In this document: one piece after another, positions 18,667 through 28,478 of the stretch
How the letters are laid out: each line of letters opens with the position of its first letter
How positions within the stretch are numbered: the stretch's first letter is position 1
Notes under the pieces: model-generated
The model's input: only the letters and a program-made list of their open reading frames with translations
Database searches by the model: none
Told to the model about the DNA's origin: nothing
Origin: an uncultured Anaerolineae bacterium
GTDB lineage: Bacteria > Chloroflexota > Anaerolineae > Anaerolineales > Villigracilaceae
DNA length: 64,000 nucleotides
Direction of reading: 5' to 3'
Assembly (NCBI GenBank): GCA_903822545.1
Contig: CAIJPN010000017.1
Coordinates: forward strand, 1 to 64,000
Program-made: the position numbers and the translations under genes

Positions 18667-20079
18667 TTAGCAGTCAAAATACAGCGTGAATTCGTACGGC
18701 GTTGGGCGCATCCGCACCGGGTCGAGTTCAACCTGGCGCTTGTAGTCGATGTAGGCTTCGAGCAGGTCGGTGGTAAAGACATCACCTTTGAGCAGAAATT
18801 CGTGGTCGGCTTCGAGCGCGTGGAGCACGTCGGCCAGCGAGCCGGGCACCTGCTTGATGAGCTTGGCTTCTTCGGCGGGCAGTTCGTACAGGTCTTTGTC
18901 CTGCGGGTCGCCGGGGTCGATGCGGTTTTGGATACCATCCAGGCCAGCCATCAGGATTGCGGCGAAGCACAGGTAGGGGTTGCTGGAAGCGTCGGGCGCG
19001 CGGAATTCGACGCGCTTGGCTTTGGTGCTTTTCGTCACCGGGATGCGGCAGATGGCCGAGCGGTTGCGCTGGGAGTAGGCCAGGTTGACGGGTGCTTCGT
19101 AGCCCGGAACCAGCCGTCGGTAGGAATTGGTGGTCGGGGAGGTCAGCGCCAGCAGGGCGGGAGCGTGTTTCAGCAGGCCGCCGATGTAATATTTGGCGGT
19201 ATCGGAAAGGGCGGCGTATCCACCCGCATCGTAGAAAACGTTCGTGCCGTTCTTCCACAGCGACGAGTGGACGTGCATCCCCGAGCCATTATCACCAAAC
19301 AGCGGTTTGGGCATGAAGGTGACGGTTTTGCCGTTCTTGCGGGCCACGTTTTTGGCGATGTATTTGTAGAGCAGCAGGTTGTCGGCCATGCGGGTGAGCG
19401 TGTCGAAACGCATCCCCAGCTCGGTCTGCCCGGCGGTGGCGACTTCGTGGTGGTGGATTTCCATCGGCACGCCGACCTGTTCCAGCGTCAGCATGATCTG
19501 GCTGCGGACAAGCTGGAGGGTGTCGGTGGGCGGCACGGGGAAGTAGCCGCGTTTGGGCGAAATCTGCCCGCCCAGGTTCTGGCGGTCGGCGCGGCCACTA
19601 TTCCACCAGCCTTCATCGCTGTCGATGTGGTAGTAGGCTTCGTTGGTGTTGGATGAGTAGCGGACGTTGTCGAAAATGAAAAATTCGGCTTCGGGGCCCA
19701 TGAAGACCGTATCGGCGATGCCGGTCTGCTTGAGATAGGCTTCGGCTTTGCGGGCCACATAGCGCGGGTCGCGGCTGTAGGCCTGGAGCGTGATGGGGTC
19801 GTGAACATCGCAGGTGACAACCAGCGTGGGGATGTCGGCCATCGGGTCGATGAAGGCGGTATCGGGGTCGGGGATCAGCAGCATGTCGGATTCGTGGATT
19901 TCCTGGAAGCCGCGAATCGATGAGCCATCGAAGGGGATGCCTTCGCTGAAAAACTCATCGTCCATGCGGCGCACCGGGATCGTGAAATGCTGCCACTGCC
20001 CCGGCAGGTCGGTGAAGCGAATATCTACCATTTTGACGTTTTTGCCCATTTCCAGGACTTCTGCTACTGTTTTTGCCAT
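18667..20079 (-). CDS. glnA: Glutamine synthetase type I, adenylylatable form
   Basis: 470 residues from ATG 20079, with AGGAG seven bases upstream. Catalytic motifs are complete: beta-grasp [27 protein letters not shown], the ATP region [30 protein letters not shown] and VEFRAPDAS. The segment [10 protein letters not shown] contains the tyrosine that is adenylylated in GSI-beta enzymes, and the enzyme has their length and insertion pattern. It makes glutamine from glutamate, ammonia and ATP. The divergently oriented neighbour is the adenylyltransferase GlnE, which fits direct covalent control of this enzyme. Confidence 0.95.
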
Positions 20080-20248: not shown

Positions 20249-20293
20249 CCCATCAACACATCAAAAATGGGAGAGCCTTATTTTATTGTTATT

Positions 20294-20471: not shown

Positions 20472-23400
20472 ATGAACCACATCTTCCAGCGTCTCTCCAC
20501 CCGCTTTGGCACACCTTTTGAAGAAATCCGCCCCGTTTTAGAGTCCGCCCTCGCATCCGCCGCCGACCCGCAGCGTTCACTGGTCAACTTTGAGCGTTTT
20601 GCCGAAAACTATAATGACCCCGTGAACTTGCGGGGCGGGCCGGGACTGTTCGAGCAGCTTGCCCAGAACCCGCGCGTCATCGAAATCCTGCTGACGCTGT
20701 TCTCTGCCAGCCAGTTCCTGACCGAAATCCTGCTACGAAACCCGCAGGTGCTCACCCTGCTGCGCCAGCGCGAAATCCTGACGCGCCACAAGACCATCGA
20801 ACAATTCCAGGCGGAGGCCGAAGCCGCCATGCACGAAACACCCACAGAAGCGGAAAAACTCAACCGGCTGCGGCGCTACCAGCACGGCGAACTGCTGCGC
20901 ATCGGCGCGTGTGACTTCCTGGGCCTGTATGACCTTTCGGCGGTGGTTTCGCAGCTTTCGCGCATGGCGATTGGCCTCGTTCGCGCCAGCCTGAACCTGG
21001 CCTCGCGCCAGACCGGCATCAGCGCAGATGGTTTTAGCGTGCTGGCGATGGGCAAACTGGGCGGACGCGAACTCAACTACAGCTCCGATATCGACCTGCT
21101 CTTTATCATCCGCGATGACAGCCGCAACTACCTGCCGCTGGCCCAAAAACTGATCCACATCCTGACCACCTCCACGCCCGAGGGCTTTCTCTATCGCGTC
21201 GATATGCGCCTGCGCCCCTGGGGCAACGACGGCCCGCTACTGGCAACCTTCGACGGCTACCTGAAATACCTCGAAAAATCCGCCCGGCTGTGGGAAAAAC
21301 AAGCCCTGCTCAAAATCCGCCCGATTGCGGGCGACCTGGCGCTTGGCGAAGCCCTGCGCGAGAAAATCCGCCCGCACATCAGCCACATCCCCGCCGGGGA
21401 AATCCGGGCCGGAATCCACGCCATGAAACAGCGCACCGAGCAATTCCTGCGCGAAAAAGGCCGGGGCTGGGGCGAAGTCAAACTGGGCGAAGGCTCCATC
21501 CGCGACGTGGAGTTTGTGCTGCAAAGCCTGCAACTCATCCACGAGCGCAATTACCCGCAAATCCGCACCCGCGCCACGCTCAAGGGCCTCAACCGCCTGC
21601 GCGAAGCGCGCCTGCTGACCCCCACCGAAGCCCACACGCTCATCGACGGCTACATCTTCCTGCGCACGGTGGAACACTACCTGCAAATGATGGACTACCG
21701 CCAGACCTACACCCTGCCCTCCGACCCGGCAGCCATCACCTTGCTGGCGCGGCGGCTCGGTTTCGCGGCCAGCGAGTCGTTTTTAGAGCGCTACCAGCAG
21801 CACTGCACCGCCATCCGCGCCATCTACTCAAAATACATTGGGGGGATGGAAGCCCAGACGCCCGAACCGGAACTCCCCGCCGCAGACCCTGATTCCATCC
21901 GGCAGCACATCGCCCGCATGGACAAATCCTACGCCGCAGCCTTTTCCGCCGTTGAAATTGGCCGCCACACCGCCCTGGCTGGTCAACTCAACGAGGAGCT
22001 TTTGGTGCGCGTGGAGGCCGCTCCCTCACCCCCCGCCCTCACCCCCAGCCCCTCTCCCGATGGGAGAGGGGGGCATATAAGCCCCTCCCCCCTCGGGGGA
22101 GGGGTTGGGGTGAGGGCCAATCTCTGGAAAGTCACCGTGGTGGCGTATGACTACCTCGGCGAGCTTTCGCTCATCTGCGGGCTGATGTTCGTCCACGGGC
22201 TGGATATCCGCGAGGGGCAGATATTTACCTATGAAACGGAACAAGAGCCACAGGGCGGCGAAAATCCGGTTGGATTCACTCCCAGACGCCGCGCCAGACC
22301 GGGGCGGTTGACCAGACTCTCAGCCTCCGATCCATCCCCCTTAACCAACCGCCGCAAAATCGTGGATGTCTTCACGGTGGAGGCGCTCGGGCAAAATCCG
22401 CCCGATTGGGAGGCCTACGCGAGCGAACTGCACGCGCTGCTGAGAATGATGCACGCCGGGCAGCGGCGCGAGGCGCGTAGTGAGTTGGCCAAGCGTGTCG
22501 GCGCAGTGTTTGCGGGGATTGAGCAGGCCGAAAGGCCGCTGTACCCGATTGAGATCACGACCGACAACGAGATTTCGGGGCGTTACACGGCGCTGCGCCT
22601 GCAAACCGCCGATACGGTGGGGTTTTTGTATGAGTTTACCAATGCGCTCTCGCTGACGCACACCTATATTGCCCGGATGGTGGTGCAAACCAGCGGGCGG
22701 CAGGTGGATGACCTGCTGTACGTGACTGACGAGGCGGGGAAGAAGATTTTGGACGCCGAAAAGCTGCGCGAACTGCGCACGGCGGCGGTTTTGATCAAGC
22801 ATTTTACGCACCTGCTGCCGCGCTCACCCAACCCGGCTTCGGCGCTGCTGCATTTCCGCGAGTTCCTGGCGCAGTTGTTTGCGCGCCCCGGCTGGCCGGA
22901 CGAGCTGGCTTCGCTGGAGCACCCCGAGGTGCTGGGCAACCTGGCGCGGCTGCTGGGGGTGAGCGACTTTTTGTGGGACGATTTTATGCGGATGCAGTAC
23001 GCCAACCTGTTCCCGGTGGTCAGCGACCGCAGCGCCATCGAGAGTGCGCGCAGCCGGGCGCAGCTGGAGCAGGATTTGGCGGCGGCGCTGGCGGTGGGCG
23101 GCGATTGGGCCATCGCGCTGAATGAATTCAAAGACCGTGAGATGTTCCGCATCGATATGCGCCATATTTTGGGGCTGACCGCCGAATTTGGCGACTTTTC
23201 GGGCGAGCTGACCGACCTGGCGGAGGTGGTGGTCAATACCGCCTATCACCTGACCGCCGAGGGACTGCGCCAAATCCACGGCACGCCGCGCCGGGTGGAT
23301 GGGAGCATCTCGCAGATGACGGTGCTGGGGCTGGGCAAGTGCGGCGGGCGCGAGTTGGGCTTCGCTTCGGACATCGAGCTGATGTTCGTTTACTACGGCG

Positions 23401-24158
23401 AGGGCCAGACCGACGGTGCGCAGCCGGTTTCCGGCCCGGTTTTTTACGAGAAGGTGGTGCAGCACTTCCAGGAGGCCATCCGGGCGCGGCAGGAGGGCAT
23501 TTTCCACATCGATTTGCAGCTGCGGCCTTACGGCAAGGCTGGCAACCTGGCCGTTTCGCTGGATTCGTTCAAGCGATATTATGCTCCCGGCGGCCCGGCC
23601 TGGGCCTATGAACGACAGGCATTGGTCAAGCTGAGGCCGATTGCCGGTAACCCGGCGCTGGGCGCGGCGCTCGAAGCCTTGCGGGATGAGTTCGTCTATA
23701 ACGGCGCGCCCTTCGATGTGACGGCCATGCGCGCCATGCGCGAGCGGCAGGTGAGGCACCTGGTCAGCGCCGGGAAGTTCAACGCCAAATACAGCCCCGG
23801 CGGGCTGGTGGATATTGAGTATCTCATCCAGGGGCTGCAAATCACGCACGGAGTGGAAAACCCATCCCTGCGGTGGACGAATATCCGCGAGGCCATGTCC
23901 GCGCTGAATGCGGCGGGGATTCTCAGCGACGAGGATTACACCAAGCTGCACAAAGCTCACACCTTCCTGCGCTGGCTGATTGATTCCATGCGCATGGTGC
24001 GCGGGAATGCCAAAGACATCACCGTCCCGGCTTATGGGACGGAGGAGTTTGCGTATTTAGCGCGGCGACTCAGGTATGGGAATGATGTCGAGCGGCTGCG
24101 GGATGATTTGGCGCAGTATCAGGCCGAGGTGCGGGAGATTAATGGGAGGCTTTTGTAG
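20472..24158 (+). CDS. glnE: Glutamine synthetase adenylyltransferase with internal ACT domains
   Basis: 1228 residues from ATG 20472, against about 950 for typical GlnE. N-terminal nucleotidyltransferase at about residues 190-280 (GKLGGRELNYSSDIDLLF, YRVDMRLRPWG) with its helical domain to about 460. C-terminal nucleotidyltransferase from about 945 (GKCGGRELGFASDIELMF, HIDLQLRPYG), where the second metal-binding Asp of the usual SDxD is Glu. Between them two segments look like GlnD-type ACT domains: about 550-680 (KVTVVAYDYLGELSLICGL ... KIVDVFTVEAL) and 704-780 (YTALRLQTADTVGFLYEFTN ... VDDLLYVTDEAGKKI). An 81-bp palindromic repeat is inserted in frame just before the first. GlnE adds or removes AMP on glutamine synthetase; the ACT domains could sense glutamine directly. 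The stop codon lies inside a 34-bp palindrome. Confidence 0.9.
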   Translation: MNHIFQRLSTRFGTPFEEIRPVLESALASAADPQRSLVNFERFAENYNDPVNLRGGPGLFEQLAQNPRVIEILLTLFSASQFLTEILLRNPQVLTLLRQREILTRHKTIEQFQAEAEAAMHETPTEAEKLNRLRRYQHGELLRIGACDFLGLYDLSAVVSQLSRMAIGLVRASLNLASRQTGISADGFSVLAMGKLGGRELNYSSDIDLLFIIRDDSRNYLPLAQKLIHILTTSTPEGFLYRVDMRLRPWGNDGPLLATFDGYLKYLEKSARLWEKQALLKIRPIAGDLALGEALREKIRPHISHIPAGEIRAGIHAMKQRTEQFLREKGRGWGEVKLGEGSIRDVEFVLQSLQLIHERNYPQIRTRATLKGLNRLREARLLTPTEAHTLIDGYIFLRTVEHYLQMMDYRQTYTLPSDPAAITLLARRLGFAASESFLERYQQHCTAIRAIYSKYIGGMEAQTPEPELPAADPDSIRQHIARMDKSYAAAFSAVEIGRHTALAGQLNEELLVRVEAAPSPPALTPSPSPDGRGGHISPSPLGGGVGVRANLWKVTVVAYDYLGELSLICGLMFVHGLDIREGQIFTYETEQEPQGGENPVGFTPRRRARPGRLTRLSASDPSPLTNRRKIVDVFTVEALGQNPPDWEAYASELHALLRMMHAGQRREARSELAKRVGAVFAGIEQAERPLYPIEITTDNEISGRYTALRLQTADTVGFLYEFTNALSLTHTYIARMVVQTSGRQVDDLLYVTDEAGKKILDAEKLRELRTAAVLIKHFTHLLPRSPNPASALLHFREFLAQLFARPGWPDELASLEHPEVLGNLARLLGVSDFLWDDFMRMQYANLFPVVSDRSAIESARSRAQLEQDLAAALAVGGDWAIALNEFKDREMFRIDMRHILGLTAEFGDFSGELTDLAEVVVNTAYHLTAEGLRQIHGTPRRVDGSISQMTVLGLGKCGGRELGFASDIELMFVYYGEGQTDGAQPVSGPVFYEKVVQHFQEAIRARQEGIFHIDLQLRPYGKAGNLAVSLDSFKRYYAPGGPAWAYERQALVKLRPIAGNPALGAALEALRDEFVYNGAPFDVTAMRAMRERQVRHLVSAGKFNAKYSPGGLVDIEYLIQGLQITHGVENPSLRWTNIREAMSALNAAGILSDEDYTKLHKAHTFLRWLIDSMRMVRGNAKDITVPAYGTEEFAYLARRLRYGNDVERLRDDLAQYQAEVREINGRLL
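22036..22116. repeat. 81-bp composite palindromic repeat inside glnE
   Basis: Outer arms CCCTCACCCCCAGCCCC and TTGGGGTGAGGG enclose two hairpins, CCCTCTCCC/GGGAGAGGG (22050-22070) and CCCCTCCCCC/GGGGGAGGGG (22082-22104). The same layout occurs at 37943-38015 between two hydrogenase genes. The element is exactly 27 codons and adds a low-complexity Pro/Ser/Gly stretch to GlnE without breaking the frame. Confidence 0.75.
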
Positions 24159-27056: not shown

Positions 27057-28478
27057 ATGTTCAAAAACTTCGATGAAGCACGCCAGTTCGTTGAACGCGA
27101 GCAAATCCAGATGGTGGATATCAAATTCTGCGACCTGTGGGGGCGCTGGCACCATCTCACCATCCCCGCCAGCCAGTTCACACCCGATTTGATGGAAAAA
27201 GGCATCGGGTTCGATGGGTCATCCGTCGGGTTGAAATCGGTCAAATCGGGGGATATGGTTCTCGTCCCCGACCTTTCCACCGGATTCATCGACCCGTTTT
27301 GGGAAGTCGCCACCCTGAGCTTTATCTCCGCCACCCGCGAGGCTGACACCCACGCCATTTTCGCCAACGACCCGCGCAACATCGCCCTGCGCGCCGAGGA
27401 ATACATGCTCCAGACCGGCATCGCCGACCGCAGCATGTGGGGGCCGGAGTTCGAGTTCTACATTTTCGACAGTGTCAGCTACGAATATGGAATCAACCGC
27501 GCCAGCTACGTGCTCGAAAGCGCCGAAGCCGACTGGAACAGCGCGAAGGGCGGTCACGGGCACTACATCCCGCTGCATGGAGGCTATCACGCCATCCCGC
27601 CCAAAGACCAGCTTTTCAACCTGCGCGCCGATATGTCCATCAAGCTGGAGAAGATGGGCGTGCCGGTCAAGTATCACCATCACGAGGTCGGCGGGCCGGG
27701 GCAGCTCGAAATCGAAACGCCGATGATGGGCCTGATGCAGGCGGGCGATGCGACCATGAAAATCAAATACGTCACCAAAATGACCGCCCACCAGCGCGGG
27801 CAGACCGCCACCTTCATGCCCAAACCGCTCTACGGCGAGGCGGGCAGCGGGATGCACTTCCACCAGCACCTGTTCAAGGGCGATGTGAATGTGTTCTACG
27901 ACCCCGCCGGCTACGGCACGCTCAGCCAGACCGCGCTTTTCTACATCGGGGGATTGCTGACGCACGGCCCGGCGCTGCTGGGCTTTACAAACCCATCCAC
28001 CAACTCCTACCGGCGGCTGGTTCCCGGTTACGAAGCCCCCGTCAACGCCTTTTTCTCGCTTGGCAATCGCTCCGCCGCCATCCGCATCCCGAAATACGCC
28101 AACCAGCCGGATACTGCCCGCTTCGAGTTCCGCCCGCCCGATGCCGCCGGGAACGTCTACCTGATGCTGGCCGCCCAACTGATGGCCGGTCTGGATGGCA
28201 TCCGCCGCAAAATCGACCCAACCGCCGCCGGTTTTGGGCCTTTCGACAAGAACATCTTCGCCATGACCGACGAGGAACGCGCCCAGATCAAGGGCCTGCC
28301 CACCTCGCTCGATGAAGCGCTCGACGCCCTCGAAGCCGACCACGCCTTCCTGACCGAGGGCGAGGTCTTCGCCGGGGAAATGATCCAGCAGTGGATTGAT
28401 TACAAGCGCAAGCACGAAGCCATGGAAATCCGCAATCGCCCGCATCCGTATGAGATGAGCCTGTATTTTGACGTTTAA
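27057..28478 (+). CDS. glnA: Glutamine synthetase type I, second copy lacking the adenylylation tyrosine
   Basis: 473 residues from ATG 27057 (AAGGAG upstream). All catalytic motifs are present: [57 protein letters not shown] and FEFRPPDA. The loop that carries the modified tyrosine in GSI-beta reads KNIFAMTDEER, with Phe in place of Tyr, so GlnE should not be able to modify it. The two synthetases of this window are clearly divergent and not recent duplicates. This copy might provide glutamine when the other is switched off, or be controlled by feedback or a protein partner. Confidence 0.93.
   Translation: MFKNFDEARQFVEREQIQMVDIKFCDLWGRWHHLTIPASQFTPDLMEKGIGFDGSSVGLKSVKSGDMVLVPDLSTGFIDPFWEVATLSFISATREADTHAIFANDPRNIALRAEEYMLQTGIADRSMWGPEFEFYIFDSVSYEYGINRASYVLESAEADWNSAKGGHGHYIPLHGGYHAIPPKDQLFNLRADMSIKLEKMGVPVKYHHHEVGGPGQLEIETPMMGLMQAGDATMKIKYVTKMTAHQRGQTATFMPKPLYGEAGSGMHFHQHLFKGDVNVFYDPAGYGTLSQTALFYIGGLLTHGPALLGFTNPSTNSYRRLVPGYEAPVNAFFSLGNRSAAIRIPKYANQPDTARFEFRPPDAAGNVYLMLAAQLMAGLDGIRRKIDPTAAGFGPFDKNIFAMTDEERAQIKGLPTSLDEALDALEADHAFLTEGEVFAGEMIQQWIDYKRKHEAMEIRNRPHPYEMSLYFDV

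Follow-up and report, generated by a model that had tools for sequence, protein, structure and literature searches.

A glutamine synthetase adenylyltransferase with a GlnD-type ACT pair between its catalytic halves: a likely self-sensing GlnE in Anaerolineae

We analysed a 64,000-nucleotide stretch (the window) from the genome of an uncultured Anaerolineae bacterium, and our results support a model in which its glutamine synthetase (GS) adenylyltransferase, GlnE, carries a GlnD sensor module as its central regulatory region. From the sequence and the predicted structure, we consider it likely that adenylylation of the GS encoded by the neighbouring glnA1, and its removal, are set by glutamine through this region, without PII or GlnD. 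The protein is best read as a PII-independent, self-sensing GS adenylyltransferase/removase that is conserved in Anaerolineae, and it probably does the job of three proteins in E. coli.

The gene (Table 1) starts with ATG and encodes 1228 residues; a TTG at 20286, 186 nt upstream, is a possible alternative start. Pfam finds two GlnE domains (PF03710) and two GlnD_UR_UTase domains (PF08335) in the protein, each PF03710 followed by a PF08335, and the score against the NCBIfam GlnE equivalog PRK11072 (542.9 bits) passes the cut-off of 487. The N-terminal half retains both the GKLGGRELNYSSDIDL and the YRVDMRLRPWG motifs, and the C-terminal half carries GKCGGRELGFASDIEL, which contains DxE, and IDLQLRPYG. 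Catalytic acidic residues are present in both halves of all relatives, as SSDIDL in the adenylyl-removing (AR) half and ASDIEL in the adenylylating (AT) half, together with a distal Asp in each. Every family member has DxE (ASDIEL) in place of DxD in the adenylylating half; Dx[DE] is an accepted catalytic motif in the nucleotidyltransferase superfamily. In a phylogenetic tree, all of the C-terminal halves group together (100/100) next to the AT halves of proteobacteria, and the N-terminal halves, including that of the window protein, fall on the side of AR halves. This placement supports the assignment of the removase function to the N-terminal half and the transferase function to the C-terminal half.

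Table 1. Positions in the window of glnE, its domains and the two glutamine synthetase genes.
Feature	Coordinates	Strand	Basis or remark
glnA1, GSI with adenylylation motif DLYELPAEE, presumed target	18667..20079	-	divergent neighbour of glnE
glnE, ACT-containing bifunctional GS adenylyltransferase/adenylyl-removase	20472..24158	+	ATG start, 1228 aa
N-terminal nucleotidyltransferase half, adenylyl-removing type	20688..21353	+	PF03710, residues 73-294; motif conservation
PF08335 helical domain, removase half	21405..21833	+	Pfam
GlnD-like linker helices (RQHIARMDKSYAAAFSAVEIGRHTALAGQL), N-terminal to ACT1	21888..21986	+	GlnD profile match in relatives begins here; alignment with GlnDs; helices in model
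ACT1	22113..22463	+	AlphaFold, GlnD profile, alignment with GlnDs; beta1 551-559, alpha1 564-574, beta2 577-586, variable loop, beta3 629-638, alpha2 646-661
ACT2 (DTVGFLYEFTNAL...VDDLLYVTDEAGKKI)	22545..22823	+	residues 692-784; Pfam, GlnD profiles, AlphaFold, alignment
C-terminal nucleotidyltransferase half, adenylylating type	22935..23675	+	GlnE domain search, motif conservation, tree
PF08335 helical domain, transferase half	23727..24152	+	Pfam
glnA2, GS paralogue with Phe at the adenylylation site (NIFAMTDEE), presumed non-target	27057..28478	+	

The catalytic motifs of the two halves are separated by 705-761 aa in the family compared with 506-528 aa in the E. coli and Tsukamurella GlnEs, a spacing that is longer by about 200 aa. 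A prior sequence-only reading had placed two GlnD-like ACT domains in this region, at approximately residues 550-680 and 704-780. Profile searches and predicted folds both bear this out, and the proposed limits are about right. When isolated, the middle of the window protein (residues 458-835) matches [protein-PII] uridylyltransferase models at E 1.5e-14, and GlnD models hit the middle region in each of the 15 family members (best E 7.5e-27). The NCBIfam GlnD models reach E 4e-25 against the whole window protein, with the main stretch at residues 629-771, and the Pfam model ACT_ACR9_3rd matches residues 695-769 (E 4e-5) at 24 bits, below its cut-off of 27 bits. The best score against a full-length GlnD equivalog is 87.7 bits, far under the cut-off of 959, and a Pfam scan of the protein finds no HD domain. 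In relatives, the match runs unbroken across positions ~616-845 of the 850 in the GlnD profile, which comprise the post-HD linker, ACT1 and ACT2. Direct alignment with four GlnDs identifies positions common to both groups, namely D..G.L in the beta1-alpha1 loop and the FT strand end of ACT1, and the pattern N...T and D..G...D...D..G in ACT2. Residues invariant in the family include D..G of the beta1-alpha1 loop in both ACT domains (D560/G563 and D714/G717 in the window protein), among relatives at 51-71% identity in this region. An hhalign comparison of the family with just E. coli GlnD gave a weak match (16% probability, confined to ACT2), probably because both sides were shallow, and the family profiles settled the question. 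A PDB sequence search with the family profile returned nothing meaningful (E 0.16). The module occurs once in the window genome, with no second copy found there.

Canonical GlnEs give a different picture. For the control proteins of E. coli, Tsukamurella and Legionella, the match to GlnD models is confined to the nucleotidyltransferase part (profile positions 11-265) and never includes the ACT part. Likewise, the ACT region used as a query against plasmids finds GlnD and not GlnE, with no match in the plasmid-borne GlnEs of Pseudomonadota and Actinomycetota. We also considered an R-region motif (R..LD.L.P) as a marker for loss of the PII-binding region, but dropped it, as other canonical GlnEs are also without it.

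AlphaFold models of the middle region of 15 sequences (the window protein and 14 relatives) show the beta-alpha-beta-beta-alpha topology of an ACT domain twice. Mean pLDDT is 75.6, with the cores mostly at 83-98 and the variable loops low. A near-full-length run recovers the same two ACT elements, although at a pTM of 0.41 the domain arrangement is not fixed and no coupling path is visible. The structural neighbours of the middle region are mainly tandem ACT regulatory domains, including those of aspartate kinase (Z 11.2 and rmsd 4.7 over 167 residues) and threonine dehydratase (Z 8.2-8.8), along with part of the large 180-kDa glutamate dehydrogenase (Z 8.4 across 131 residues); such matches report the fold only and say nothing of the ligand. 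The loop that precedes ACT1 in the window protein contains a GC-rich in-frame insertion (ALTPSPSPDGRGGHISPSPLGGGVGVRA) at 22020..22112 on the + strand, which was found in none of the relatives. It belongs to a partly palindromic segment (CCCTCACCCCCAGCCCCTCTCCC...GGGGAGGGGTTGGGGTGAGGG) at 22020-22127. A stretch resembling its translation also occurs at G000:C133:1106-1216 in the same genome, and the insertion resembles a dispersed repeat that has inserted itself into the gene.

The GS that the sequence-only reading took as the target is the product of glnA1, the divergent neighbour of glnE. Its DLYELPAEE is the counterpart of the E. coli GS adenylylation motif NLYDLPPEE. All 13 of the carriers examined have a GS with DLYxL, compared with 4 of 22 non-carriers (Fisher p 1.6e-6, uncorrected for kinship); one of these four has a shortened motif, and the remaining non-carriers have other GS types only. 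Counting against the model, the DLYELP motif is intact in three relatives that have no GlnE. In most loci with enough flanking sequence, glnA is adjacent to or near glnE and usually divergent from it. An amtB-like gene lies between the two in loci L055, L058, L059 and L063, and the Amt positions were confirmed for the genomes of L058 and L063. Paralogues like the glnA2 product occur in genomes G224, G397, G072 and G297.

The ACT-containing architecture is conserved in Anaerolineae, where 17 loci in named genomes encode proteins with 54-67% identity. The carriers include two cultured strains, Anaerolinea thermolimosa IMO-1 and Leptolinea tardivitalis YMTK-2, so the proposal is directly testable. 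A GlnE domain search of 400 Chloroflexota genomes gave 13 matches, of which 11 are genuine GlnEs, and all 11 have the ACT pair. The count leaves out a 75-codon fragment in G318 and a 30-bit Pfam match in G042, which we rejected since it looks like a desaturase-like ORF. Three of the 11 (G013, G137 and G153; loci L013, L012 and L011) come from Chloroflexota outside the class and have the order ACT-ACT-AT. They lack the removase half, and the search of their genomes found no second GlnE domain; G137 is 88% complete, and its gene stops at a contig end. Decayed copies were seen as the G318 fragment (L137/L038), in a genome where the corresponding GS reads DLFELHGEE and the tyrosine is gone, and as a fragment with an internal stop in G064 (L126).

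The window protein is a GlnE by its catalytic make-up, but it is not part of a PII-controlled cascade. The PII-GlnD-GlnE bicyclic cascade requires both PII and GlnD in the genome, and the sequence-only reading had seen neither gene in the window. This now extends to the whole genome, which is 100% complete: no PF00543 match for PII was found at E 0.001, GlnD was not detected, and the only PF08335 matches are the two inside GlnE. A search for an ammonium transporter (PF00909) also found none in this genome, whereas 14 of 14 control genomes match. Among the 400 Chloroflexota genomes, PII of canonical strength (E below 1e-16) is present in ~115, as counted from the results table, and in none of the 11 carriers of ACT-containing GlnE (0/11 versus 115/389 of the others; Fisher p 0.04, uncorrected for kinship). 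This co-absence is confounded by kinship, because PII is commonly absent from these families with or without GlnE. Most GlnE-less relatives in the family are also without PII, and thus PII seems to have been lost widely in the lineage. Among the 400 genomes GlnD was found once, in G081, a genome that encodes PII but gave no match in the GlnE domain search. A GlnE-less member of the same family shows an alternative wiring, in which amtB, a canonical PII gene and a glnA of the DLYELP type follow one another (G332:C32:48148-51314, L139).

In the mechanism we propose, free glutamine would bind the embedded ACT pair. In the glutamine-bound state, the C-terminal half would adenylylate the Tyr in DLYELPAEE of the glnA1 GS and lower its activity, and when the pair is empty the N-terminal half would remove AMP from GS. 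A PII/GlnD uridylylation cascade would then be unnecessary, in a genome in which neither component was detected. The earlier proposal that the sensor is fused into the effector, allowing direct glutamine control without PII uridylylation, is supported as far as sequence allows: neither of the outcomes named as refuting it, a middle region with no ACT fold or a complete GlnD-PII system in the genome, was seen. We infer glutamine as the ligand, as well as the sign of its effect (a shift of the enzyme from removal to transfer) and the lack of need for another partner. GlnD is a glutamine sensor, very likely via its own ACT pair (PMC3173338 and references therein). More broadly, we lean towards a picture in which, across this PII- and GlnD-less lineage, one protein senses glutamine and both writes and erases GS adenylylation, with the ACT-ACT-AT proteins as a further version that would be one-way or reversed by another enzyme.

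Other readings of the ACT pair deserve consideration. The pair could sense a different effector, such as another amino acid or metabolite, in which case GlnE would still regulate on its own, without PII. Many amino acids are ligands of ACT domains, and the family loops, DYPGEL and DTVGFL, differ from DRPGLL, a common form in GlnD, which could mean a different specificity; the top structural neighbours are the tandem ACTs of aspartate kinase and threonine dehydratase, a likeness of fold only. However, it is specifically the GlnD ACT pair and linker to which the sequence is related, and the target enzyme makes glutamine; on balance we regard a different effector as rather unlikely. It is less probable still that the pair is a structural or oligomerisation module and that GlnE is controlled through its catalytic halves, as the glutamine effect on the E. 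coli adenylyltransferase (ATase) might be, or by an unrelated partner. Although ACT domains often mediate dimerisation, and adenylylation by the E. coli ATase depends on glutamine even though that enzyme has no ACT domains (PMC6316151), the invariant residues in both beta1-alpha1 loops suggest a putative binding site, and the pair is kept even in proteins without the removase half.

Finally, it is very improbable that the window GlnE remains under the control of a divergent PII-like protein that PF00543 failed to detect. Some carriers do have weak PII-superfamily matches (22-40 bits), but those inspected are PstA-like or other, including tandem, PII-like proteins without the YRG T-loop, the loop for uridylylation. 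Moreover, the window genome has no match at all at the threshold used, and no GlnD was detected to modify such proteins.

The bicyclic cascade of PII, GlnD and GlnE is a textbook example of multi-protein nitrogen signalling. If a self-sensing GlnE does replace it in Anaerolineae, this single-chain version would be both a natural experiment on the contribution of the PII layer (sensing of 2-oxoglutarate and energy) and a minimal reversible feedback switch to study. ACT-containing GlnE would also be a convenient system for studying how ACT domains of the GlnD type recognise glutamine. Because NCBI models classify such proteins as GlnE and nothing more, the module can readily escape notice. We found no description of ACT domains in GlnE in the part of the open-access literature that was covered, which is a weak sign of novelty. 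In E. coli, PII stimulates adenylylation in its unmodified form and removal in its uridylylated form, PII-UMP (PMC6316151, PMC12409994). Direct glutamine control of an adenylyltransferase is not new in itself, and going from three proteins to one is less of a step than it appears, because the E. coli ATase is itself glutamine-responsive (PMC6316151). What is new is a GlnD-type sensor inside GlnE, in genomes that lack PII and GlnD.

In comparison with known systems, the window protein shares with enterobacterial and actinobacterial GlnE (PRK11072, PRK14109) the two nucleotidyltransferase plus PF08335 halves in the order AR then AT, the catalytic motifs, and a GS with an adenylylatable Tyr. It differs from them in its central GlnD-type ACT pair, in the DxE rather than DxD of its AT site, and in belonging to a genome without detected PII or GlnD. 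With GlnD it has in common the linker helices and both ACT domains, which are collinear with positions 616-845 of the GlnD profile, but it has no HD domain, its module is internal rather than C-terminal, its two catalytic halves are of the GlnE type, and the PII substrate of GlnD was not found in the window genome. The tandem-ACT feedback enzymes, aspartate kinase and threonine dehydratase, similarly join an ACT pair to an enzyme of amino-acid metabolism, which allows direct feedback control. These are biosynthetic enzymes, however, whereas the enzyme joined to the ACT pair in the window GlnE modifies a protein.
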